Origin: an uncultured Marinilabiliaceae bacterium
GTDB lineage: Bacteria > Bacteroidota > Bacteroidia > Bacteroidales > Marinilabiliaceae
Assembly (NCBI GenBank): GCA_905235955.1
Contig: CAJONN010000001.1
Location: 1 to 28,498, forward strand
Reading direction: 5' to 3'
DNA: 28,498 nucleotides
The position numbers were made by a program, and so were the translations under genes. The notes beneath the pieces were generated by a model, which ran no database searches, was not told where the DNA came from, and was given only the letters and a program-made list of their open reading frames with translations. Shown piece by piece: positions 2,519 to 21,322 of the stretch; within the stretch, counting starts at the first letter, position 1; each line of letters begins with the position of its first letter.

Positions 2519-3499
2519 TCAAAATCCCCATGCTGATGGGGTTACATTGGCTTCTACTATCTCTTCTATGTTGTCTGGCAGGTTGTGAAAAAAGTCGATA
2601 CCTGTATATTCTTCCAATTGGTCTATCGACACTATTTTGCTTTTCATTTCAGCATTTTTGTCTGTTATGTTTTTTGTGTCGTAGTCTTTGTGCTCTATCC
2701 AAAATGCTAATGTTGAATAGGTGTTGTTTTTCACTTTGAGCAGAGCCATGTAGTAGTATTTTGGTATTGGTATCCGACCTCGGCATGTGTAGCCAAGTAT
2801 GTTTTCGTCGGTGTCTATTGTGCCACCTTTGACTACGTAGAGTGTGTCAGCAAACGATATGTCGCGTCCTTTGTTTTGTACATATTCTTCGTAGTATGTC
2901 CAATATTTTTGGTTGAAATTGGATAGTTGTGGGCTCATATTGGTCATGTAGAAGGTGTTGTCGTTGGCGGCGCGACTATAGAGTCGGTCGGCCGAGGCAC
3001 AGAGGTGACCGTGGTCGTAGCCTGCACCAAACGATTCGTCGTCGTCGATGGCAAATTGCATTGGCAAGACGTCATCGTGTGGATATTGTGGCACTGCTCT
3101 GTTGTCTTTGCGCGAAACGTTTTTGGGGCGTGTTGCGGCATCGAAGCGGAAGGCTATCCAACGCGAGTGATATTTGGTTGTGTCGTATTCAAAGCTGTAG
3201 GTTACTATGGTGTCTGTGCCTTCTATTGATGAGTGATAGAAGAAGCATTTGTTGTCTTTGATGGCTGGCACTTCTAACCTGCTTGCACAGTTGATGGTGG
3301 TGCGAGCTGCTGTTGGTTTTGGGGTGCGTGTGTTGTCGCTGCCATTGTTGTCTGATGTGGTGTCGTCGGTGATGTCAGTTGTTTTGGCTATGCCAAATAT
3401 TATGTTGCTATCGTCGTCGTCATCATCGCAAGCAACAACCGCTATCAAAGCGGTTGCTACTGCAGCGACAATAGTATATTTGTATGCTGTATGTTTCAT
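2519..3499 (-). CDS. Surface lipoprotein nuclease, DNA/RNA non-specific endonuclease (NUC1) family
   Basis: 326 residues from the ATG at 3499, which starts a clean lipoprotein signal: MKHTAY, a hydrophobic stretch, then AVVAC with C24. Six aspartates follow the cysteine, resembling the acidic export signal of surface-exposed Bacteroidota lipoproteins. The frame extends 14 codons upstream but would overlap the previous gene and bury the signal. A linker of about 50 residues rich in D, T and N precedes the nuclease domain. Its active-site motif is YDHGHLCASADR (D162-H165), followed by TFYMTNMSPQLSNFNQ, which supplies the metal-binding Asn region. The usual DRGH is DHGH here. It is the last gene of the five-gene operon and probably cleaves extracellular DNA and/or RNA. 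No clear terminator follows before the zapA-operon promoter. Confidence 0.9.
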   Translation of the reverse strand: MKHTAYKYTIVAAVATALIAVVACDDDDDDSNIIFGIAKTTDITDDTTSDNNGSDNTRTPKPTAARTTINCASRLEVPAIKDNKCFFYHSSIEGTDTIVTYSFEYDTTKYHSRWIAFRFDAATRPKNVSRKDNRAVPQYPHDDVLPMQFAIDDDESFGAGYDHGHLCASADRLYSRAANDNTFYMTNMSPQLSNFNQKYWTYYEEYVQNKGRDISFADTLYVVKGGTIDTDENILGYTCRGRIPIPKYYYMALLKVKNNTYSTLAFWIEHKDYDTKNITDKNAEMKSKIVSIDQLEEYTGIDFFHNLPDNIEEIVEANVTPSAWGF

Positions 3500-3510
3500 T
3501 GGTTGTTTTT

Positions 3511-5640
3511 TTATTTTATACTTACTGACTGTATTATCCATGTGCCTTTAGTATCGGTAAAGCGGAAGGCTATGTATATTGGTTTGCCTTTGTATGCTGA
3601 TAGGTCGGCTGTGGCATTGGCAGAAGTTATATTATAGTTGTTGCTGACTTCCGGATAGCCATTGAATTGTATGGTTGTCCATGTCTTTTTGTCGGTTGAT
3701 ATTTGCAAAGTGAGGTTCTTAGTCATTGCCTCTTCTGACTCAAAGAATTGTTGTGAGTGATTAAACGATAGTGTAACATTGTCGGTTGATGGCAATGCTA
3801 TGAGTGGCGATACGAGGCGCGACTCTATTTCTGTTACTCCGTCTCCGACATCAGCTTTTATGCCTTTGCCGCTTTCGTAATTCCACACTTTATTTTGTAT
3901 GTTTTGTGTGGTTTGCTCTACCCAACCGCTAAAGCCGTTGGTGGCAAAGTTTATATTGTAAGCATCAGGCTCTTCTACTGTTTCGCCATCGCTACCTGCT
4001 GCAATTGAGAGGTTTTTGACTTCCCAAGTAGCACTTTTAGTTTTGGCTGTAAATGAGAAGGCTATGCGAACAGTTTTGCCTACAAATTTGCTTGGCACAT
4101 TTACATTAGCAGTAACGAAGTTTGTCCAATCAGAGCCTTCGGTATGGTCGTTTTTGAGTGTTGTCCATGTGGCTGTTGAGGCATTGCCAGCATAGTCGTC
4201 AGAAATCAAGAGTGTGTAGTATGAGTTGTCCTCAATATAGCGCAATATGTATTCGTAGCTTATGTGTGCAGCTTCGCTAATTTTTACTGGTGCTGATATA
4301 AGCATATATTGTCCGGCTGTATTGGTTTTGGTAGCGTTGTCGTAGTTGGTTGCTCTGGCTGTATTGTAGTCGTTGACCCAAGTACCTTCGCCTGATATGA
4401 GTTCTGACTTGAATGAGCCAAGCGATGAACTAAACGACTCTTCGTATGGCAATGTGTGCTCTATGTCGTTATTTTCTTCGTCGTTATTCTCTTCGGGTAT
4501 TACATTCTCTTCTGAGCTGCCACCATTGCCTGCTGCAATTGTGAGGTTTCTTACTTCCCATGTGGCGCTTCCGCTCGATGTACATTCAAAATAGAGTGCT
4601 ACATAAACTGTTTTGCCTATGTAGGCTGAAGGTATGCTAACATCGGCTTTTTCAAAGTTGGTCCAATCTTTACCTTCGGTATGGTTGTTTTTGAGTGTTG
4701 TCCATGTAGCTGTTGAGGCGTTGCCTTTGTAGTTGTCAGAGATGACGAGTTTGGTATATCCGTCTTTTTGCTTGTAGCGCAAGATGTATTCATAGCTTAT
4801 GTGTGCTGCTTCGCTAATGTTTACAGGTGCCGACACAAGCATGTATTTGCCAGCGGTGTAGTGGTTGCTATAGCCTGTAGCTTTTGCAGTTTTGTAGTCG
4901 ATAATCCAACTGCCACTGCCCGATATGAGTTCTGATTTGAATGTACCAAGCGATGTTTCAAATGTTTCAGTATATGGTAGTTTTTGTATATCGGCAGGGT
5001 TTATTGTTTGGCTTGACATAAATGAGTTGTGCGAACCTCGATATACAACAAAGTTGCATATTTCCCATGTAGCGGCTTTAGCTTGAGCTATATAGCGGAA
5101 GGCTATGGTAGTTTTTTCGCTTTTGAGGTTTTGAGGTATGTCAAGATAATTGCCTTCGTGCCATGTGTTGTAGTCAGCACTTTGCACTGGGTTATAGTCG
5201 AGTGTTGTCCATGTAGCTTCGGTTGGGTTGCCATCGTAGTCGTCGCTAACGAGGAGCTGATAGTTGGTGGTCATTTCAGCTGAGTTGGCATAACGCAAAA
5301 TATATTTGAAGTAGATGCAAGCCGAGTCTACATTGCTAAGGTCAATATATGGCGATATGAGCCAACTGTCTGATTTATAATCTACTGAGTTTTCATACGA
5401 TGTTGCTTTGGCATAGTCGCGCTCTTGTATCCACGGATAGTTTCCAACAAAGTCGAATGTTTCAAAATCGCCCAATGATGTGGCAAAGTCTTGCTTGTAT
5501 ATTACAAGGTCTTCAATTTTGTTTTCGTTGTCCTGTGTGTTAGCTTCAGGGTTGAGTTCGTAGGGGGCAGGCACATCTTCGCACGATGTAAATGCCATAG
5601 CTGCTACAAGGCTCAAGATGCTTAAAATATATTTTTTCAT
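3511..5640 (-). CDS. Lipoprotein with four choice-of-anchor-J / DUF5017-like beta-sandwich modules
   Basis: 709 residues. The signal ends at the lipobox TSC with C20, followed by EDVPAPYEL. Four related modules follow, at about 45-205, 218-371, 396-551 and 560-709. Each has an F-E-T/S-S-LG-x-F type opening, a W-[IV]-x-DY-x-x-A-[KR]-A-[TS]-x-Y patch, a D-[DN]-Y-x-G-x-[AP]-[ST]-x-ATWTTL strand and a closing ATWE[IV] strand; module four is the most divergent. Modules two and three are near-copies. Such modules are adhesin- or carbohydrate-binding-like, but their ligand is unknown. The gene lies 38 nt after the DUF5689 gene and 11 nt before the nuclease, so it is probably a surface binding protein of the same system. 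No catalytic residues are evident. Confidence 0.85.
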   Translation of the reverse strand: MKKYILSILSLVAAMAFTSCEDVPAPYELNPEANTQDNENKIEDLVIYKQDFATSLGDFETFDFVGNYPWIQERDYAKATSYENSVDYKSDSWLISPYIDLSNVDSACIYFKYILRYANSAEMTTNYQLLVSDDYDGNPTEATWTTLDYNPVQSADYNTWHEGNYLDIPQNLKSEKTTIAFRYIAQAKAATWEICNFVVYRGSHNSFMSSQTINPADIQKLPYTETFETSLGTFKSELISGSGSWIIDYKTAKATGYSNHYTAGKYMLVSAPVNISEAAHISYEYILRYKQKDGYTKLVISDNYKGNASTATWTTLKNNHTEGKDWTNFEKADVSIPSAYIGKTVYVALYFECTSSGSATWEVRNLTIAAGNGGSSEENVIPEENNDEENNDIEHTLPYEESFSSSLGSFKSELISGEGTWVNDYNTARATNYDNATKTNTAGQYMLISAPVKISEAAHISYEYILRYIEDNSYYTLLISDDYAGNASTATWTTLKNDHTEGSDWTNFVTANVNVPSKFVGKTVRIAFSFTAKTKSATWEVKNLSIAAGSDGETVEEPDAYNINFATNGFSGWVEQTTQNIQNKVWNYESGKGIKADVGDGVTEIESRLVSPLIALPSTDNVTLSFNHSQQFFESEEAMTKNLTLQISTDKKTWTTIQFNGYPEVSNNYNITSANATADLSAYKGKPIYIAFRFTDTKGTWIIQSVSIK

Positions 5641-5678
5641 AATATCTGTTTTTCAAAAAAAAGGTGATGACAATGGTT

Positions 5679-6644
5679 TTATTGTAGTTCTTCGTATCGT
5701 TCTACGTCGGTGATTGTGCGTAGTGTAAGTTGCCAATTGCTGTAGTAGGTGAGTTGGCCTGTATACGAACGCACATCAGTAGGGAGGTGTAGAAACGAAC
5801 ATTCGTTTTGTGTTGAGGTTCGGATGGTAAGCGTTTTGTCTGACCGGTAGTTGAGTGTGCGATCAACAGCGTAGCCATCGTCGTAGAGGGCTTCTGGGGC
5901 AAATATTTTTGGTAGTGGCTCGTCGTTGCCACTAAGTGCGCCTGTAGCTGGTATGCGCGATTGTATGCCTTGCATTTCGGCTATCAAACCGCGCACGGTG
6001 GCAAGTAGTGGTGTGTGATAAGGTGTTTGGTTGCCTCTGTTGTTGAGCCATGCTATGCCTTCTTGTGTGGTAAGGTCTATTGGTACAAGCTCTGGTGCTG
6101 ACAAATCTGGCTCGCCTACCAACTCTATGTTGGTTTTGCAAAGCTCAAATAGCATCGGACCAAGGCGCAAGTTGCCTTTAGAGGTATAATATGGCTGACC
6201 AATTTTAGGTACTCTGCTGTAATTGCCTATATATAAACCGTTTAAGTTTATCTTTACGCGTTGTCCGAGTTTGAAATAGGGCGAGAGAAATGTATTTTTT
6301 ATGCCGATGCTAATACATTGGTCGTAGGCATCGTCGGTGGTTGGTTTGGTAGTATCGATGCTTCTGATGATGAGTGTTTGGTAGAGGTTGCCCCCTTCAT
6401 CGTTGGCACATACTACGCCTTCAAACACTATGTCGGTGTTTACTTTTTCAAATGTATTGTTGTTGGCAAGCACTGAGCTAAATTTGTTTTTGAGCTCATA
6501 TATGGTTGTGTTGACTTCCCCTATATTCTCGGTGCTCGTTACCAAAAAAGTGTTGGTGTCGGGCTCATCGGTATCGTCCATACACGATGTGCAAACAAGT
6601 GTTGCTGTAGCCAACAGACTTATATATATATTCCTAATATTCAT
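5679..6644 (-). CDS. DUF5689 lipoprotein with OB-fold-like domain
   Basis: 321 residues. A lipoprotein signal ends at CTSC with C21, and acidic MDDTDEPD follows, compatible with surface export. The section at about 65-175 (DIVFEGVVCANDEGGNLYQT, then a CISIGIKN strand and LGQRVKINLNGLYIG) has the pattern of the OB-fold-like domain of DUF5689 proteins. The C-terminal half, with ATVRGLIAEMQG and RTLNYRSDKTLTIRTS, looks like a second beta domain. It begins 15 nt after the TonB-dependent receptor gene. No SusD homologue is present, so this protein may play the receptor-partner or substrate-capture role; OB folds often bind nucleic acid. The family assignment is fairly secure, the role is inferred. 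Confidence 0.82.
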   Translation of the reverse strand: MNIRNIYISLLATATLVCTSCMDDTDEPDTNTFLVTSTENIGEVNTTIYELKNKFSSVLANNNTFEKVNTDIVFEGVVCANDEGGNLYQTLIIRSIDTTKPTTDDAYDQCISIGIKNTFLSPYFKLGQRVKINLNGLYIGNYSRVPKIGQPYYTSKGNLRLGPMLFELCKTNIELVGEPDLSAPELVPIDLTTQEGIAWLNNRGNQTPYHTPLLATVRGLIAEMQGIQSRIPATGALSGNDEPLPKIFAPEALYDDGYAVDRTLNYRSDKTLTIRTSTQNECSFLHLPTDVRSYTGQLTYYSNWQLTLRTITDVERYEELQ

Positions 6645-6659
6645 ACTGTTATCTCCTTA

Positions 6660-9578
6660 TTAGAATTTAAATCCGATATTGAGGAATGCATTGAGCGAAT
6701 TGGCATAATAGTATTTTGAATTTCGTGAGAAGCGATAGGCTTTGCCTTCGCCTTTGGTGTATATGCCGTTGCTCTCGCTATAATAGTAGTCGTCGCGGTT
6801 TTGCTCATATCCGCCTGTGCGCATATTGGTGTTGTTTGTGAGATTGTTGACCGACAAATTGATGCTCAGCGACTTGCGACGTAAACGTATGTTTTTGCCT
6901 ACCGACAAATCTATCATATAGTCGCCACTGAAACGCTCTTGATGTGCAGCATAGCTCTTCACAAATTGTCCGCTATTGTCGTATAACAATCCTCCATTCT
7001 CTTTTATGTCGGCTTTGGTTACTTCGTAAGCCAAACGTCCTAAGTTGTCGACGCTCGATGGGGTATATACTCTACCATTAGTTTTGTATGTGCTTGTGAG
7101 TCGTCGGTAGGGCGAGAAGGCTATGTATATACGGTCGTAGTAGTTGATGTTAGCTTCAAAAAACCAACCATTTATGTTGTAGTTGATGCCAAAGTTGAGG
7201 GCTGTAAGTGGTGTGCCGCTTACACGCATATTTTCTGCCACTACACGTAGTTGCTCGGCTTCGCCACTGGGTGTTGTGTAGCTATTGAGCTTTTGCACTT
7301 CGTTGTAGTCCATACCTTCGTAGCTTATTTGCGCAAGCGGATTGTTGGTATATTTGGCATCGGCTACTGTACCTATTGCATGCACTGATAGGCTGCTGAG
7401 TATCTGATAGTTGAGAGCTACTTCTATGCCATAATGCTCTTTCTCTATATTGCTCATTGTGAGGTAGGTAAAGGTGCTTTGTTGGTCGTTGTAGAAGGCT
7501 GTTTGCTCCACTTGGTCAGCAAATTGTGTGTAGTAGCCACTCACTTTGCCAAAGAGGTTTGCTATGCGAAACTGATATGATGCTTCGCCACTCAATATTT
7601 TTTCGAGTTCAAGGTTGTTGACAAAGTTGTTTTGTATGCTTGCTGATACAAAGCTATTGCGAGCTTGTGGTGCAATGGCTGCATAACCTCCACCTACGCT
7701 TATATAGTGGTTGGCTCCGGGATGATAGGTAACCGATGCTCCCACTTCGCTGCCTACAAATTGGGCTTTGCCACTCTTGCCGTATGAGTTGTGTGGTGCT
7801 CTGCCATTTTGCATTTTACCATTGCGCTCTATCGAGGTTGCTTCTACGCCAAGTTGTGCATTAGCTGTTAGCGGACCGTATGCAAACTGATATTGTCCCC
7901 ATGCTCGAGCCTTCAGCACATCGATATTGTAGTTGTAGCCAAACTTATCGTCTACACCTATTTGCCTATTGGGGTGGCGCATATCGTTTTGTGCTTCGTT
8001 GCTTTTTGCGCCGTAGTCGTTTACTGAATATTTGTCAAGGTCGGTATACTTCGAAGCACCAAGTAGGTCGGCCATTGTTTTGTAGTGCATACCTCGAGTT
8101 GCATTGCCAAATATGCCTGCCGTATACTTGTGATGTTGGTTTACGTTGTGCTTCCAAGTAGCACTAAGCAAACCTGCTGCCTGATTGTTGTGTCTGCGCT
8201 CTTGATAATAAAGAGCCTCGCCACCATTTGCTTCGCTCACACTGTTGACGTAGTACATGCGGTCCCAATCTATCTGCCTATTGGCTTTGTCTGATGTCCA
8301 ATGATTGAGCAAAGTATTGTATTGGTCAATAAAGTACGGATTTTGTGCCAAATATTCGCCATTGTTTTTCGTTTCGTCATAAACATCAAACACCGACGAT
8401 GGCAAATTCTTATAATAGTCGGGGCGTGGGTCGTAGGCATCGCCCGCCCAGCCAAGTGCCGTTGTGCTATATAATGCATATTTGAATCCGCCCGATACAG
8501 TTAGGCGCGAGTCAGTTGTTGCGTCCCAGTCCCAAGTGATAATAGTTGTTGGCTCGTAGTCGTTTACTATGCGAGCGTTGCGTTTTTCGCCATTTTGATA
8601 GCCCCAATTGGGGTTGTAGTAGTGGCTGTTGGCAAGCCAATAAGCCTCTTCGGTTGATGCAGCTTGTTGGGCACGCTCAGTGGGTGCGCCAAATGTTGCG
8701 AGCGAGATGCTATGCTTGTCGTTGATGTGTTTTTCGGCTGAAAGAAAATAGCTAAGCGAATTGTAGAATGTGCCCTCTATTACACCTTCATTGGCCCACC
8801 TATAACCCACCGAACCTGCAAATGCCCATCCGTTGGCAAGCAAGCCTGTAGCGTAGGTGTACATGGCGCGTGCTTTGTAGTTGCGGTTGCATACTGACAC
8901 TGTGAGTTTGTTGCCAGTTGCAAATTGGCTTGCACGTGTGTTGATGTTCGATGCACCGCCTATATTGTTTAGTCCAAAATGGTTGTATTCGTGGTGCGAA
9001 ACGCTTTCTTGATTGCGTGTAGCATCGTTCATGCCACCTATCAATGCGTAGTTGAAGTTGCCTCGCTCTATGTCGTTGAATAGCAATCCATTTATGTAGG
9101 TTTGGCTATACTGATTCTCATAGGCTCTGACGCGAAAACGCATTGCGCTAAATAGATATCCAACTTTCGATGCATAAGGGTCGTTGTTGCCTGAAAGTAC
9201 TGATGTTACGGTTTGTGATACATCGCTGTCATCGTCGAGCTGACTCTCGGTGAAGGTGAAATCTGAGTTGTCGTCGTCAGAATAGAGTTCGGCAGTAGCA
9301 AGTGCTATGCGCAGAGGTTCGGCTGACGAAATGTGTACTGTTTGTTCCTGATAGCCAATATATGACACAACTATGTCAGTTGGCAAAGTGAGAGCTGACA
9401 GCCTAAATTGTCCGTTGGCATCAGCTATTGTGCCTTGTGTTGTATGTGCTATAGTTAGCGCGGCACCTGCCAGAGGCTGACCTGTTTGGGCATCAACTAC
9501 TACGCCCAATACATCGCTCTGCGCTGATGCTATGGCTACATTAAGCACCAACAACATTAGTAGCAAAAGGTTTTTCAT
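6660..9578 (-). CDS. TonB-dependent outer-membrane receptor with carboxypeptidase-regulatory-like N-terminal domain
   Basis: 972 residues. A signal peptide (cleavage after ASA, near residue 19) precedes a CarboxypepD_reg-like domain at about 23-95 (DVLGVVVDAQTGQPLAGAAL, then IVVSYIGYQEQTV). Next come an acidic linker (97-120, with DDDNSD and LDDDSD), a plug at about 125-235 (FRVRAYENQYSQTYINGLLF, then NNIGGASNINTRAS) and a large aromatic-rich beta barrel ending in LNIGFKF, with the expected C-terminal Phe. It is not followed by SusD, so it is not a classical Sus pair. It sits 59 nt after an exported DNase I-like hydrolase and 15 nt before the DUF5689 lipoprotein. The substrate is inferred from those neighbours to be nucleic-acid breakdown products. 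Energy would come from a TonB complex such as the one at 19277-21322. Confidence 0.93.
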   Translation of the reverse strand: MKNLLLLMLLVLNVAIASAQSDVLGVVVDAQTGQPLAGAALTIAHTTQGTIADANGQFRLSALTLPTDIVVSYIGYQEQTVHISSAEPLRIALATAELYSDDDNSDFTFTESQLDDDSDVSQTVTSVLSGNNDPYASKVGYLFSAMRFRVRAYENQYSQTYINGLLFNDIERGNFNYALIGGMNDATRNQESVSHHEYNHFGLNNIGGASNINTRASQFATGNKLTVSVCNRNYKARAMYTYATGLLANGWAFAGSVGYRWANEGVIEGTFYNSLSYFLSAEKHINDKHSISLATFGAPTERAQQAASTEEAYWLANSHYYNPNWGYQNGEKRNARIVNDYEPTTIITWDWDATTDSRLTVSGGFKYALYSTTALGWAGDAYDPRPDYYKNLPSSVFDVYDETKNNGEYLAQNPYFIDQYNTLLNHWTSDKANRQIDWDRMYYVNSVSEANGGEALYYQERRHNNQAAGLLSATWKHNVNQHHKYTAGIFGNATRGMHYKTMADLLGASKYTDLDKYSVNDYGAKSNEAQNDMRHPNRQIGVDDKFGYNYNIDVLKARAWGQYQFAYGPLTANAQLGVEATSIERNGKMQNGRAPHNSYGKSGKAQFVGSEVGASVTYHPGANHYISVGGGYAAIAPQARNSFVSASIQNNFVNNLELEKILSGEASYQFRIANLFGKVSGYYTQFADQVEQTAFYNDQQSTFTYLTMSNIEKEHYGIEVALNYQILSSLSVHAIGTVADAKYTNNPLAQISYEGMDYNEVQKLNSYTTPSGEAEQLRVVAENMRVSGTPLTALNFGINYNINGWFFEANINYYDRIYIAFSPYRRLTSTYKTNGRVYTPSSVDNLGRLAYEVTKADIKENGGLLYDNSGQFVKSYAAHQERFSGDYMIDLSVGKNIRLRRKSLSINLSVNNLTNNTNMRTGGYEQNRDDYYYSESNGIYTKGEGKAYRFSRNSKYYYANSLNAFLNIGFKF

Positions 9579-9637
9579 TGTTTGAGTTTGTCCGTTAGTT
9601 TTTTGTTTTGAGAAGAATATTATCTGTTGTTGAAAAA

Positions 9638-10678
9638 TTAGTCTGCAATTTCTTTAATAAGGTATACACTTGTGGGCAAGTGGTCGCTATAGCCGTTGAG
9701 CCAAACGCCACCAGCATGTGTACGCAGTGGTGAACCCTTGTATTTGCCATCTTGCTGAAGCAGATAGTCGCGTACAAATACCTCAGAACTAAAGTATTTT
9801 ATGTCCTTTCGGTCAGTGCCAATAAGTGCGCCCGATATTATAATTTGGTCAAACAGATTCCATTTGCCATTGTAGAGCAAAGTGCCTTGACCTTTACTAT
9901 ATAGTATATCCCAAAAAGGGTTGTACATATCGTTGTTGTTCTTTACATCTTTGATGCGATGCACAGCACCGAGTCCGTCAGTTACGCTTTTGTTGTTCGG
10001 GTCATCATTGAGGTCGCCCATTACTATCACTTTCGAACCCGGATATGCACGCAAGAGCGAATCTTTAACGGCACGTAATTGCACTCCAGCACGTTCGCGC
10101 ACTGCACTTTCAGCAGCTCTCGATGGCCAGTGATTGACCACTACGTGCAATGTCTCGCCAGCCATTTTGCCAGTGGCAACCAGAAAACCGCGTGTGATGT
10201 GTGTAGTGTCGTTGTTAGGATATACGTAAGGTACAAGGCATGAATCAGTAAGCTGAAAGAAACGCGGATTGTAGAGCACTGCGCACTCTACACCACGCCT
10301 ATCCGGACCATCGATGTGCATTATCTTGAAGCCTCTGTCGCGCAATGCTGGCTGACGTAGCAAATCTTCGAGTACGCCCCTATTTTCGACCTCTGAAACG
10401 CCTATGATTGAGGCACCAGCTTTTATTTTGCTTGTGCAAAGTTCGCTCAGCACTCTCGACAAATTAGTAAGTTTGGCTCTGTATTTCTGGCCTGTCCATT
10501 TATATGAGCCGTTGGGCAAAAATTCCCAATCGTTTTTGCCATAGTCATGACAAGTATCGAAAAGGTTTTCGAGGTTGTAGAATGCCACGCCATAGAGTGC
10601 GTATTTCTTTTGCTGCGCTGTGGTTGCTAACACTATTGCAAGCATTGCTACCAACACAGCCATAAAACGTCTGCTCAT
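9638..10678 (-). CDS. Secreted endonuclease/exonuclease/phosphatase (DNase I-like) family hydrolase
   Basis: 346 residues with an N-terminal signal (MSRRFMAVLVAMLAIVLATT, cleavage near AQQ), so exported. The DNase I-like fold motifs are present in order: FYNLENLFD (N35, E37), the metal-binding SEVENR (E96, E98), NHWPSR (N182, H183), GDLNDDP (D222, N224), DQIIIS, and terminal SDHLP (D332, H333). All catalytic residues expected of the family are therefore intact. Substrate may be DNA, RNA or another phosphodiester; sphingomyelinase-like members share the fold but not the neighbours seen here. It is the first gene of the five-gene operon, with a TATCTTTG box about 37 nt upstream, and it diverges from rpsA. 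Confidence 0.92.
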   Translation of the reverse strand: MSRRFMAVLVAMLAIVLATTAQQKKYALYGVAFYNLENLFDTCHDYGKNDWEFLPNGSYKWTGQKYRAKLTNLSRVLSELCTSKIKAGASIIGVSEVENRGVLEDLLRQPALRDRGFKIMHIDGPDRRGVECAVLYNPRFFQLTDSCLVPYVYPNNDTTHITRGFLVATGKMAGETLHVVVNHWPSRAAESAVRERAGVQLRAVKDSLLRAYPGSKVIVMGDLNDDPNNKSVTDGLGAVHRIKDVKNNNDMYNPFWDILYSKGQGTLLYNGKWNLFDQIIISGALIGTDRKDIKYFSSEVFVRDYLLQQDGKYKGSPLRTHAGGVWLNGYSDHLPTSVYLIKEIAD

Positions 10679-10714: not shown

Positions 10715-10722
10715 CAAAGATA
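10715..10722 (-). promoter_or_regulatory. -7 box (TATCTTTG) for the nuclease/receptor operon
   Basis: Minus-strand TATCTTTG is a perfect match to TAnnTTTG, about 37 nt before the start codon of the DNase I-like gene. No TTTG is found at the ideal -33 distance; a nearby TTTG is only 10 nt away. An alternative sigma factor or an activator could compensate. The rest of 10723-10792 holds nothing recognisable. Confidence 0.5.
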
Positions 10723-14475: not shown

Positions 14476-15669
14476 GTGAAAATTTACAACTATATAACCC
14501 TTGCGTTGATGCTTTTTGCAACAAATATAGTTAGTTCGCAAACATTTTCAACAACGGCAAAACTCATATCTCTTGTTGATGTCGACTCTGTTTTTTGGTT
14601 TTCTGATTGGTCAGATGCTAATATTTGTGTTTCAGAGCTTGGCAATGATGCAGTAGTAGAGTGGTATGCATTTGATGAGGTTACAACTAATTTTGGTGCA
14701 CTTTTGCAGTCAGATGAAGGCACATCGAGTTGCTTACATATAGAGCAAAATGGTGGTTTTTTGTGCAAAATAACTACTCTGAGTGGTGTGTCAGAACATC
14801 GTTTTTGGGCTGATGTGCCTGTTATTAGTCAGTTGTCGTTTAGCATAGATAGTATCGATTGCGACCAAATGGAAGTAACGGCTCAGCCTGAAGCACCATC
14901 AACACGTGTGTACAATTTTGCATCAGCAGAATGGCAAGAGGTGGAGCAAAAATTGGTTTATGACTGGTATGTGGCTGATACATTGCAATTTACTACAAAT
15001 AGAAAAGATGCAATTCTTGAGTCTCCAATGGACGATACAGAGCTAAAACTTGTGGTACACAACCAAATAGAAAACAGTAATCAGGCTACATATTTGGTTG
15101 GAAGCTATGCAGTGATGGCACGGTTTACATATTCAGAACGCAAACGTGAAGTGGCCAATGAGATAACAACAGGCGATGCTTATTCAGCTCCGGCAGAAAT
15201 AGAATTTAAGAGCAATTCAAAAGGTAATATTACTGTATATGAGTGGATTATGGGCGATGTGTCGAGGTTGTATGAAAAAGATCCGGTCTATTCGTTTCAG
15301 AACTCAGGCGAATATAAAATCAAGCTCATTGTTACTGACGAAAATACAGGTTGCAGCAATGTAGATTCTACCTTGTCGCTTACCATCACCGATGCTTTTA
15401 TGGGCTTCCCACAAGTGTTTACGCCCAATGGCGACGGAGTCAACGATGAATTTAGAGCAGCATACAAATCATTGAAAAGTTTTGACCTGAAAATATATAA
15501 CCGATGGGGACGCAGAATTTATTACTCTACAGACCCATCGCAAGGGTGGAACGGAAAAGAAGGCAATGCAGAAGCAGCTGAAGGTGTATATATGTATGTG
15601 GCTGAGGCTGAGGGGTTTGACAAGGGGGTGAAGATACGAAAGCATGGCTCTGTAACATTAGTAAGATAG
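14476..15669 (+). CDS. Secreted protein with PKD-like domain and T9SS type B (CHU_C) sorting domain
   Basis: 397 residues. A signal peptide (MKIYNYITLALMLFATNIVS, cleavage near SSQ) begins at a GTG; no upstream ATG is available and the next ATG would cut the signal. The middle is low-similarity beta-rich sequence, followed by a PKD-like domain at about 228-305 (YEWIMGD, YSFQNSGEYKIKLIVTD). The last 85 or so residues carry the hallmark FPQVFTPNGDGVNDEF, KIYNRWGRRIYYS, GWNGK and EGVYMYV of gliding-motility-associated C-terminal domains. These direct proteins through the type IX secretion system. It lies 12 nt before rsh, which suggests a shared transcript. Function beyond secretion is not visible. 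Its presence implies a T9SS elsewhere in the genome. Confidence 0.88.
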   Translation: MKIYNYITLALMLFATNIVSSQTFSTTAKLISLVDVDSVFWFSDWSDANICVSELGNDAVVEWYAFDEVTTNFGALLQSDEGTSSCLHIEQNGGFLCKITTLSGVSEHRFWADVPVISQLSFSIDSIDCDQMEVTAQPEAPSTRVYNFASAEWQEVEQKLVYDWYVADTLQFTTNRKDAILESPMDDTELKLVVHNQIENSNQATYLVGSYAVMARFTYSERKREVANEITTGDAYSAPAEIEFKSNSKGNITVYEWIMGDVSRLYEKDPVYSFQNSGEYKIKLIVTDENTGCSNVDSTLSLTITDAFMGFPQVFTPNGDGVNDEFRAAYKSLKSFDLKIYNRWGRRIYYSTDPSQGWNGKEGNAEAAEGVYMYVAEAEGFDKGVKIRKHGSVTLVR

Positions 15670-19276: not shown

Positions 19277-19963
19277 ATGATACAAGATTTGGCTACACAG
19301 GTTGATGCCTTAGCAGAAGGTGCAGAAACCGCAGAACCCGTAACTCTCAATGTAATAGACCTTGCCATTCAGGGCGGATGGATAATGGTTGTACTTTTAT
19401 TGCTCTCTATCTATGCCATATACGTCTTTGTTGAGCGCACTTTTGCTCTCACTCGTGCTCTGAAAGAAGACAAAACATTTATGGGCAAGATAAAAGACTA
19501 CATTCATAGTGGCAACATCGATTCGGCACGTGCCCTTTGTCAGGCTACTGATACGCCTGTATCGCGCATGATAGAAAAAGGTATCTCGCGCATCGGTCGC
19601 CCACTAAACGACATCCAAACTACCATTGAAAATGTTGGCAACATAGAAGTAAGCCGTTTGGAAAAAGGATTGGCTGGTTTGGCATCAGTGTCGGGCGGTG
19701 CACCTATGATAGGCTTCTTTGGTACAGTAACTGGTATGATTCAAGCATTCTTTGAAATGGCTAATGCTGGTAACAATATAGAAGTGAGCACATTAGCAGG
19801 TGGTATATACACAGCATTGGTTACAACCGTAGGCGGTTTGGCTGTAGGCATTGTAGCCTATTTTGCATACAACAACCTTGTAGCGCGTGTTGATAAAGTT
19901 GTGCTCATACTCGAAGCTCGCACAATGGAATTTATGGATCTATTAAACGAACCGGGAGAGTAG
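19277..19963 (+). CDS. exbB: MotA/TolQ/ExbB proton channel family protein
   Basis: 228 residues, an inner-membrane motor subunit that, with ExbD, couples proton flow to TonB. Three membrane segments are visible at about 27-50 (GGWIMVVLLLLSIYAIYVFV), 135-160 (SGGAPMIGFFGTVTGMIQAF) and 172-200 (GGIYTALVTTVGGLAVGIVA), with the large cytoplasmic loop between the first two. The GT-V-GMI-AF and TALVTT-GGL-VGI motifs are the family signature. It starts the exbB-exbD-tonB operon behind a -7 box, with 4 nt to exbD. TolQ cannot be formally separated from ExbB on sequence, but the neighbouring TonB-type C-terminal domain favours ExbB. Confidence 0.92.
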   Translation: MIQDLATQVDALAEGAETAEPVTLNVIDLAIQGGWIMVVLLLLSIYAIYVFVERTFALTRALKEDKTFMGKIKDYIHSGNIDSARALCQATDTPVSRMIEKGISRIGRPLNDIQTTIENVGNIEVSRLEKGLAGLASVSGGAPMIGFFGTVTGMIQAFFEMANAGNNIEVSTLAGGIYTALVTTVGGLAVGIVAYFAYNNLVARVDKVVLILEARTMEFMDLLNEPGE

Positions 19964-19967
19964 GCCT

Positions 19968-20360
19968 ATGGCACTTAAGAGAAGCAACAAACTGAGCGCA
20001 TCGTTTAGTATGTCGTCTATGACCGACATCATATTTTTGCTGCTCATCTTCTTTATGCTCACCTCAACGCTAGTGCACCCAAACGCACTCAAATTGCTAT
20101 TGCCTCAGAGTAGCAACCAGACATCGGCAAAGCCAAACACCTCAGTGTCAATAACCAAAGACTTGCGCTACTATGTAGAAACTAAGCGAGTAAACTTTGA
20201 CCAACTTGAGCCAACACTGCAAGCAAAACTTGGCGAAAACTCTGAAATATATATATCGTTGCATGTTGATGAGAATGTTCCGATGAAAGAGGTGGTAAAG
20301 GTTATGAATATAGCCAAAAAGAATAAATACAAGCTCATTTTGGCAACAAGGAGCAAATAA
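19968..20360 (+). CDS. exbD: Biopolymer transport protein ExbD/TolR
   Basis: 130 residues with one N-terminal membrane helix holding the essential aspartate (SSMTDIIFLLLIFFML) and a periplasmic alpha/beta domain (ISLHVDENVPMKEVVKVMNI). It works with ExbB in the energy-transducing motor. Length is typical. It begins 4 nt after exbB, and its stop codon shares one base with the tonB start (TAATG), so the three are translationally linked. Confidence 0.92.
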   Translation: MALKRSNKLSASFSMSSMTDIIFLLLIFFMLTSTLVHPNALKLLLPQSSNQTSAKPNTSVSITKDLRYYVETKRVNFDQLEPTLQAKLGENSEIYISLHVDENVPMKEVVKVMNIAKKNKYKLILATRSK

Positions 20361-21322
20361 TGGAAAGAGAAGAAAAAAATTATAAACGCGAAGGCATCAT
20401 TGGTACCATTGTAGTACACTTGTTGCTGATAGCAGTGCTTTTCCTGACCGTGATGAGCACCACACCGCCCGAAGAAGAGGCTCTGATACTTGACTATGGC
20501 GCAAGTGGTGGTAGCTCAGGCTCGGCAGGTGGCGCAACAGCTGTAGCGCAGCAAACGGCTCCACCTGCGCCAGCACCAGAGCCTACGCCAGCTCCTGCGC
20601 CCGCAGCTCGTGCCGATGGACAAAGCATGACGACGCAAGACTTTGAAGAGGCAGCAGCTCTGAAAGAGGCTAAGCGCAAAGCTGAAGCTGATGCAAAAGC
20701 TAAAGCCGAAAAGTTGGCCAAGGAGAAGGCTGCTGAAGATGCTGCTAAGCGTAAAGCTGCCGAAGAGGCTGCTGCACGACAAAAAGCGGCTGCTGAAGAG
20801 GCAGCACGACAAAAGGCTGCAGCCGAAGAAGCAGCAAGGCAAAAAGCAGCAGCTGAAGAGGCAGCAAGAAAAAAGGCAGCTGAAGAGGCTGCCAAAAAAG
20901 CTGCAGCGCAAAGTGCTATATCAAAAGGCTTTTCGGGCAGTGGTACAGGTAGTGCATCGGGCACGGGCAATGGTAGTGGTAGCGGACAAGGCAACCTCAC
21001 TGGTACAGGTAGCGGCACAGGTAGTGGCACTGGCATAGGCAACGGCATTGGTACATTCTCGCTTGCTGGCAGATCGCTTGTTGGCAACTTGCCCGTACCA
21101 AAAAGCAATGTGCAAGAGGCAGGCAAAGTGGTAGTTGAGATAGTTGTAAACAAATATGGCAAAGTAACAGCTGCCTCCGTAACCCCCAAAGGCACAACAG
21201 TGCAAAACCAAACGTTGTGGAATCAGGCCGTAGCAGCCGCTAAGCAAGCCAAATTCAATAGCGATGCAAGTGCTGCAGCTGTACAAACAGGCACAATAAC
21301 ATATACATTTAAGTTGCAATAA
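20360..21322 (+). CDS. tonB: TonB-family energy transducer with TolA-like helical linker
   Basis: 320 residues. An N-terminal membrane anchor (GIIGTIVVHLLLIAVLFLTV) with the family His leads to a short Pro/Ala stretch (PPAPAPEPTPAPAPAA) at about 70-87. Next are a long Ala/Glu/Lys-rich helix at about 94-187 built partly of 10-residue repeats, a Gly/Ser/Thr linker at about 192-234, and a C-terminal TonB domain at about 238-320 (VVEIVVNKYGKVTAASVTP, then WNQAVAAAKQAKF). The long charged helix recalls TolA domain II, while the end domain and exbBD neighbours favour TonB. It should span the periplasm to energise outer-membrane receptors such as the one at 6660-9578. That specific pairing is inferred. 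Confidence 0.88.
   Translation: MEREEKNYKREGIIGTIVVHLLLIAVLFLTVMSTTPPEEEALILDYGASGGSSGSAGGATAVAQQTAPPAPAPEPTPAPAPAARADGQSMTTQDFEEAAALKEAKRKAEADAKAKAEKLAKEKAAEDAAKRKAAEEAAARQKAAAEEAARQKAAAEEAARQKAAAEEAARKKAAEEAAKKAAAQSAISKGFSGSGTGSASGTGNGSGSGQGNLTGTGSGTGSGTGIGNGIGTFSLAGRSLVGNLPVPKSNVQEAGKVVVEIVVNKYGKVTAASVTPKGTTVQNQTLWNQAVAAAKQAKFNSDASAAAVQTGTITYTFKLQ
20751..20900 (+). repeat. 30-bp tandem repeat within tonB
   Basis: About five units of 30 nt encode the 10-residue pattern KAAAEEAARQ. Units at 20781-20810, 20811-20840 and 20841-20870 are the most alike; a degenerate unit precedes them and a shortened one follows. Synonymous differences between units show the repeat is not brand new. Unit number may vary between strains and would alter the length of the periplasm-spanning helix. 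Confidence 0.8.

Follow-up and report, generated by a model that had tools for sequence, protein, structure and literature searches.

The window analysed here is a stretch of 28,498 nucleotides from an uncultured Marinilabiliaceae bacterium. Five open reading frames are packed as one operon on its minus strand, from position 10678 to 2519. All five ORFs are present in the ORF list, and the five-gene operon described in an earlier reading of the letters alone (the sequence-only reading) is confirmed. The first three intergenic gaps, taken from the ORF coordinates, are 59, 15 and 38 nt. With the nuclease start placed at an internal Met at base 3499, ahead of a lipoprotein signal recognized by eye, the fourth gap is 11 nt, and the spacing of 11-59 nt given earlier is recovered. 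The first ATG of the same gene, at 3541 as called by the ORF tool, produces a 31-nt overlap with the preceding gene. Lipobox signals were recognized by eye in the operon lipoproteins and in the nuclease. Ahead of gene 1, TATCTTTG resembles the -7 promoter element of Bacteroidota and is a weak promoter candidate; a full -33/-7 promoter pattern was not found upstream of this gene.

Table 1. Genes of the operon and the promoter candidate preceding them (positions in the window).
Feature	Position	Strand	Basis
DNase I-like (Exo_endo_phos_3) nuclease, operon gene 1	9638..10678	-	PF19580, E=3.8e-102; Sec-type signal by eye
TonB-dependent-receptor-like outer-membrane protein, N-terminal carboxypeptidase regulatory-like domain	6660..9578	-	PF13715 CarbopepD_reg_2, E=8e-15
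DUF5689 surface lipoprotein	5679..6644	-	PF18942, E=3.7e-29
Lipoprotein with four choice-of-anchor J modules	3511..5640	-	NF038128 choice_anch_J, 4 stretches, E=1.2e-34
NUC1/EndA-type (Endonuclease_NS) nuclease lipoprotein	2519..3541, likely true start 3499	-	PF01223, E=1.1e-40
TATCTTTG	10715..10722	-	36 nt before ATG of gene 1; weak promoter candidate

An alkaline phosphatase and a TonB motor had also been pointed out in the window. Both are present, but outside the operon. Genes for ExbB, ExbD and a probable TonB occupy 19277-21322 on the other strand, about 9 kb from the operon, and the probable TonB has no Pfam match. The alkaline phosphatase gene is located 12 kb from the operon on the opposite strand. 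Phosphatase and motor were rejected as operon members because of this strand and their distance of 9-12 kb. No nucleoside permease, 5'-nucleotidase or regulator was detected among the five operon proteins with Pfam and NCBIfam models. A protein with PKD and CHU_C (type IX secretion signal) domains is encoded at 14476-15669.

To compare the DNase I-like (EEP) nuclease with its relatives, 32 copies were aligned, namely the window protein, that of Riemerella anatipestifer and 30 from fetched loci. Residues N35, E98, H183, D222, N224, D332 and H333 of the window protein, which we take to be the catalytic positions, are identical in 32/32 copies, in agreement with the earlier description of an enzyme with its catalytic motifs. 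A sequence search of this protein against solved structures gave zero matches. An EEP gene is found within 3 kb of the receptor gene at 27 fetched loci, on the same strand at 3 of them, as in the window, and on the opposite strand at 24. The genome from which the window derives encodes a second EEP nuclease (G000:C142:4153-5040) and a second Endonuclease_NS nuclease (G000:C23:5555-6154).

The nuclease at the end of the operon matches the solved nuclease chain 2o3b (E=3.5e-18), and a run of Asp residues was seen by eye after its lipobox Cys. Its placement in the NUC1 family holds at the level of the family match, but the DRGH motif is absent and reads DHGH. The L094 nuclease, the most similar among seven fetched relatives, has QHGH. 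Since DHGH and QHGH replace DRGH, activity of the window nuclease is not to be assumed. In genome G281 an Endonuclease_NS gene (L119:9837-10697) is found upstream of the receptor in divergent orientation, separated from it by one gene, at roughly the place that the EEP gene takes in other genomes.

The second gene had been called a TonB-dependent receptor. The protein has the N-terminal CarbopepD_reg_2 domain, and the Pfam Plug domain was detected in 15/39 proteins of the receptor orthologue alignment (the barrel model in 1/39), but in the window protein itself neither a Pfam plug nor a barrel was found. A receptor profile matched the barrel of OprC weakly (E=0.004), and the matches obtained in a sequence search against solved structures cover the N-terminal extension only. 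With the SusC/RagA model TIGR04056, whose cut-off is 368.25 bits, the receptor scored 57.5 bits, over residues 23-95 only. No SusD-family match was obtained among the five operon proteins with Pfam or NCBIfam, as had been stated before. A Sus-type locus was thus rejected, the receptor being without a SusC/RagA-type score and the SusD-family partner absent, and the Sus-like logic suggested for the operon is not upheld. One in-frame TAA each was present in two receptor orthologues (G223:C16:29532-32249 and G285:C130:1100-3607), which are perhaps decayed copies or assembly errors.

For the third and fourth genes, the Pfam and NCBIfam families agree with the proposed DUF5689 and four-module adhesin-like lipoproteins. 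The Cys21 at the lipobox is invariant across 30 aligned DUF5689 proteins. Both lipoproteins are acidic, with a computed pI of 4.7 for DUF5689 and 4.6 for the anchor-J protein. The window DUF5689 protein matched NF052645 (the M949_1556 family) at E=1.9e-14, below the cut-off, and the DUF5689 neighbour of the receptor in R. anatipestifer scored 590.8 bits with the same model. DUF5689 and one anchor-J module form a single protein in R. anatipestifer, and this ties the anchor-J lipoprotein of the window to the system.

Sequence searches of the window DUF5689 protein against solved structures gave best matches with E values of 0.61 or worse. With the DUF5689 profile one chain, 8jiy, was matched (1.3e-8) at profile positions 284-401 only, a region beyond the stretch that corresponds to DUF5689 in the long members. 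Of the many phylum matches, seven long DUF5689 proteins encoded elsewhere than in such operons were hand-picked and inspected, and in 6/7 DUF5689 is joined to an Exo_endo_phos domain, the arrangement also known from ExeM. A T9SS tail was matched on all six fusions, the score passing the cut-off in all but L112, and one fusion, L081, has a lamin-tail domain. The seventh protein, L114, matched OB-fold and ExeM models below their cut-offs; when scanned at full length it gave no match to the Pfam DUF5689 model. The view of DUF5689 as an OB-fold-like domain receives only indirect support. The fusions (L112, L113, L115, L116, L117 and L081) come from other classes of the phylum and one same-class genome, and a receptor was not seen within 20 kb of L081.

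The window receptor and a receptor of R. anatipestifer are reciprocal best matches. The search from the window gave 4.4e-66 for the best match and 2e-20 for the next, and the back-search 4.1e-66 and 1.7e-26, at an identity of only 26-27%. In a tree of 43 rows, three of them on long branches, the two receptors fall with 37 other orthologues apart from 4 paralogues (support 100/99). A second, related receptor is present in the window's own genome (G000:C176:211-2907, L111) and in R. anatipestifer (G316:C12:14661-17156), and these two group together in the tree. The R. anatipestifer locus consists of recA, four genes, comEC, two genes, the EEP gene on the strand opposite to the receptor, the receptor and DUF5689. 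This order fits the tags RA0C_RS04870, 04895, 04910, 04915 and 04920; the genome used is that of strain CCUG25054, and its equation with the ATCC 11845 tags rests on gene order. By the reciprocal best matches and the tree, the window receptor is orthologous to the R. anatipestifer protein whose place matches RA0C_RS04915. The DUF5689 gene of the window lies directly downstream of the receptor, as RA0C_RS04920 does next to RA0C_RS04915.

In R. anatipestifer, a transposon screen followed by markerless deletion established that loss of RA0C_RS04915 or RA0C_RS04920 abolishes natural transformation, which fell below detection in either deletion (~4e-10 vs 5.4e-5) (PMC8459023). There, 04915 is described as a carboxypeptidase-regulatory-like outer-membrane protein and 04920 as a DUF5689 plus anchor J protein, and DNA binding by 04920, with 04915 as the carrier, is put forward by the authors as speculation. 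An equally complete loss is reported there for comEC and dprA insertions; the readout for the 04915 and 04920 mutants is the loss of transformants, not the point at which DNA stops, and the EEP neighbour (04910 by position) is outside the 16 markerless mutants listed there (PMC8459023). According to the same text, Flavobacterium johnsoniae has all the homologues, yet is not transformable under the conditions used (PMC8459023).

Iron, phosphate and peptone are needed for transformation of R. anatipestifer (PMC8383284). Transformation is lowered, and not reported as abolished, in tonBA and tonBB mutants, and is unaffected in a tbfA mutant (PMC8383284). Only the tonBB mutant is iron-deficient, the tonBA mutant being not so; the authors ascribe the tonBB effect to iron, whereas for that of tonBA they propose a role in nutrient transport (PMC8383284). 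A further mutant, M949_1556, is attenuated according to a review, which cites it under a title on altered antigenicity and pathogenicity (PMC12566107). M949_1556 probably belongs to the same DUF5689 lipoprotein gene family, to go by the family name. A wider envelope role of DUF5689 may be considered because antigenicity and virulence are altered in this mutant.

ComEC is present in the window's own genome, on another contig than the operon. In 40 other loci, fetched with up to 20 kb of sequence each, R. anatipestifer ComEC gave zero matches, and linkage to comEC, seen in R. anatipestifer only, was rejected as a general rule. DprA was not found in the window's own assembly, which is 81% complete. 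Among 80 genomes hand-picked from a pool of 168 (those of the class and of the order, the own genome and that of R. anatipestifer), DprA was found in 78, the own assembly and G280 being the exceptions; being near-universal, it cannot discriminate.

The distribution of the operon genes was compared in two sets of genomes; for the receptor, the 4 to 7 best candidates of each genome were scored. The class and the order referred to here are probably Bacteroidia and Bacteroidales. Across 198 genomes of the phylum (197 and the own genome), the receptor profile scored at least 904 bits in 27 same-class genomes and the own genome, with the next score at 266. DUF5689 scored at least 147 bits in exactly the 27 receptor-bearing genomes, of 48 same-class genomes, and receptor and DUF5689 are within 6 kb of each other in 26/27. 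The order set (118 genomes and the own genome, 119 in all) contains 57 receptor loci in 56 genomes at 737 bits or more (next 424). The same 56 of 118 genomes have DUF5689 at 79 bits or more, within 6 kb at 55/57 receptor loci. These comparisons include DUF5689 matches of at least 79 bits only in the order and of at least 147 bits only in the phylum; at any strength, DUF5689 occurs in 70/119 order genomes and 92/198 phylum genomes. The sole same-family genome sampled, G222, is without the receptor system.

At no fewer than 41/57 order loci and at 17/27 class loci, a DNase I-like gene is located 6 kb or less from the receptor. EEP matches of at least 395 bits were obtained in 45 order genomes, of which 44 have the receptor, linked or not, and the receptor is carried by 12/73 order genomes below this score, a threshold chosen post hoc with several receptor-less genomes just under it. 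The NUC1-type gene is found within 10 kb of the receptor at 7/57 order loci against 0.29 expected (P ~2.5e-8, taking genomes to average 3.4 Mb and with a chosen 10 kb limit, relatedness being uncorrected). For the order and class counts, rows were entered by hand; in the order, the NUC rows were those near the receptor, the EEP rows were part of the matches listed, and the EEP position in G298 was taken from the L094 gene map. The linkage of the operon genes is far beyond chance. Linkage in relatives, proposed earlier as a check, is strong between the receptor gene and those for DUF5689 and the DNase I-like enzyme, and the NUC1-type gene accompanies them in a minority. The receptor-DUF5689 pair is the constant core and the nucleases are the variable part.

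Since two of its genes match genes that R. anatipestifer needs for the uptake of foreign DNA, the operon is read here, with a probability of about 0.6, as a system for DNA uptake across the outer membrane that includes two exported nucleases. The substrate, nucleic acid, is well supported, and to that extent the exported surface system foreseen by the sequence-only reading stands; DNA as the cargo, a TonB drive, the roles of both nucleases and transformation in this organism are what we infer beyond it. The DUF5689 and anchor-J lipoproteins would catch extracellular DNA, the former as the likely capture subunit, in line with the part assigned to it before, and the four-module anchor-J protein as a proposed accessory one. 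The receptor, as the putative DNA channel, would use TonB power to move the DNA across the outer membrane. Both nucleases, DNase I-like and EndA-type, would cut or trim it at the surface or in the periplasm, and ComEC, encoded elsewhere in the genome, would take a single strand inward. For membrane nucleases of the DRGH type an entry role is possible, because EndA and NucM act in this way in competence.

Other readings of the operon were weighed against DNA uptake. If the operon served nutrition, the nucleases would digest DNA or RNA outside the cell and the receptor would import oligonucleotides as a source of phosphate, carbon or nucleosides. The presence in one operon of two nucleases that carry export signals would suit such a use, extracellular EEP nucleases such as ExeM do act on extracellular DNA, and the layout of receptor and lipoproteins is like that of nutrient uptake systems. 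However, permease, 5'-nucleotidase and regulator are missing from the operon, the phosphatase is distant and on the other strand, SusD is absent and the receptor is not SusC, and the deletion data on the orthologues concern transformation; nutrition alone appears unlikely. Nutrition had been the default purpose in the sequence-only reading and is not kept as such; the functional data found on orthologues concern natural transformation and, probably for the same lipoprotein family, antigenicity and virulence. A single uptake route can serve both nutrition and transformation, and the DNA may be used as donor DNA, as food, or as both.

It is less probable still that the receptor and lipoproteins serve another ligand or an envelope function and that the loss of transformation is indirect. 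The phenotypes of the M949_1556 mutant, the need for iron, phosphate and peptone, the nutrient-related interpretation of the tonB effects by their authors and the acidic nature of the lipoproteins are consistent with this explanation, but the frequent linkage to nucleases and the DUF5689-nuclease fusions point to nucleic acid, and transformation is lost as completely as in comEC and dprA insertions. Very improbable is a role in defence or matrix turnover, where surface nucleases would degrade the DNA of biofilms or neutrophil traps with the receptor as a mere neighbour: Moraxella NucM is an extracellular nuclease with a biofilm role, but the constant core here is the receptor-DUF5689 pair and it is the nucleases that vary.

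To our knowledge, how DNA crosses the outer membrane in Bacteroidota is unsettled, and DNA, being a polymer, would be an unusual cargo for TonB-driven import by this receptor family. If DNA uptake is the correct reading, a receptor system known from gene deletions in a single duck pathogen would reach 56/118 sampled genomes of the window's order, two candidate entry nucleases would sit in the same operon as the receptor, and DNA uptake in these bacteria would be directly testable by gene deletion. A broader and more tentative idea, to which we give somewhat less than even odds, is that the class has its own general outer-membrane route for DNA, in which a TonB-powered receptor, together with DUF5689 as the capture lipoprotein and with nucleases dedicated to entry, would replace type IV pili and secretin. 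Such a route would be common to the Riemerella side and the window's order, and the EndA-type nuclease would have joined the operon in the window's lineage.

The receptor-DUF5689 pair has been described in Flavobacteriaceae, and the authors found no homologues of their outer-membrane genes in known machineries (PMC8459023). No follow-up outside Riemerella was found in open-licence PMC papers, among the matches listed, and in this limited search no open-licence paper was found that reports the pair from the window's order or connects it with EEP and EndA-type nucleases. Within that literature, the extension to this order and the tie to both nuclease types appear to be new.

Compared with known systems, the operon shares with Sus and other polysaccharide utilisation loci a surface lipoprotein, a TonB-type receptor and a surface hydrolase, but it is without SusD, its receptor is outside the SusC/RagA subfamily and its hydrolases are nucleases. 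EndA of Streptococcus pneumoniae and NucM of Moraxella catarrhalis are DRGH nucleases that act as entry nucleases and are needed in competence (PMC6384898). They share with the window nuclease the superfamily by name, and are exported and wholly or partly membrane-associated, whereas the window nuclease has DHGH instead of DRGH and is encoded together with a TonB-type receptor. In ExeM an OB-like region and an EEP domain are combined in one protein, and the OB-like region is needed for activity (PMC6085458). ExeM and ExeM-NucH resemble the operon in that an EEP nuclease domain acts together with an OB-like region, which in the operon would be that of DUF5689, but are one polypeptide without a receptor, whereas the window has separate genes without a lamin-tail domain. 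With respect to RA0C_RS04915/RA0C_RS04920 of R. anatipestifer (PMC8459023), the window differs in its co-directional EEP gene, in separate DUF5689 and anchor-J genes, in the EndA-type nuclease that ends the operon and in comEC on another contig; the two loci are alike in the receptor directly upstream of DUF5689 and in the EEP gene adjoining the receptor.
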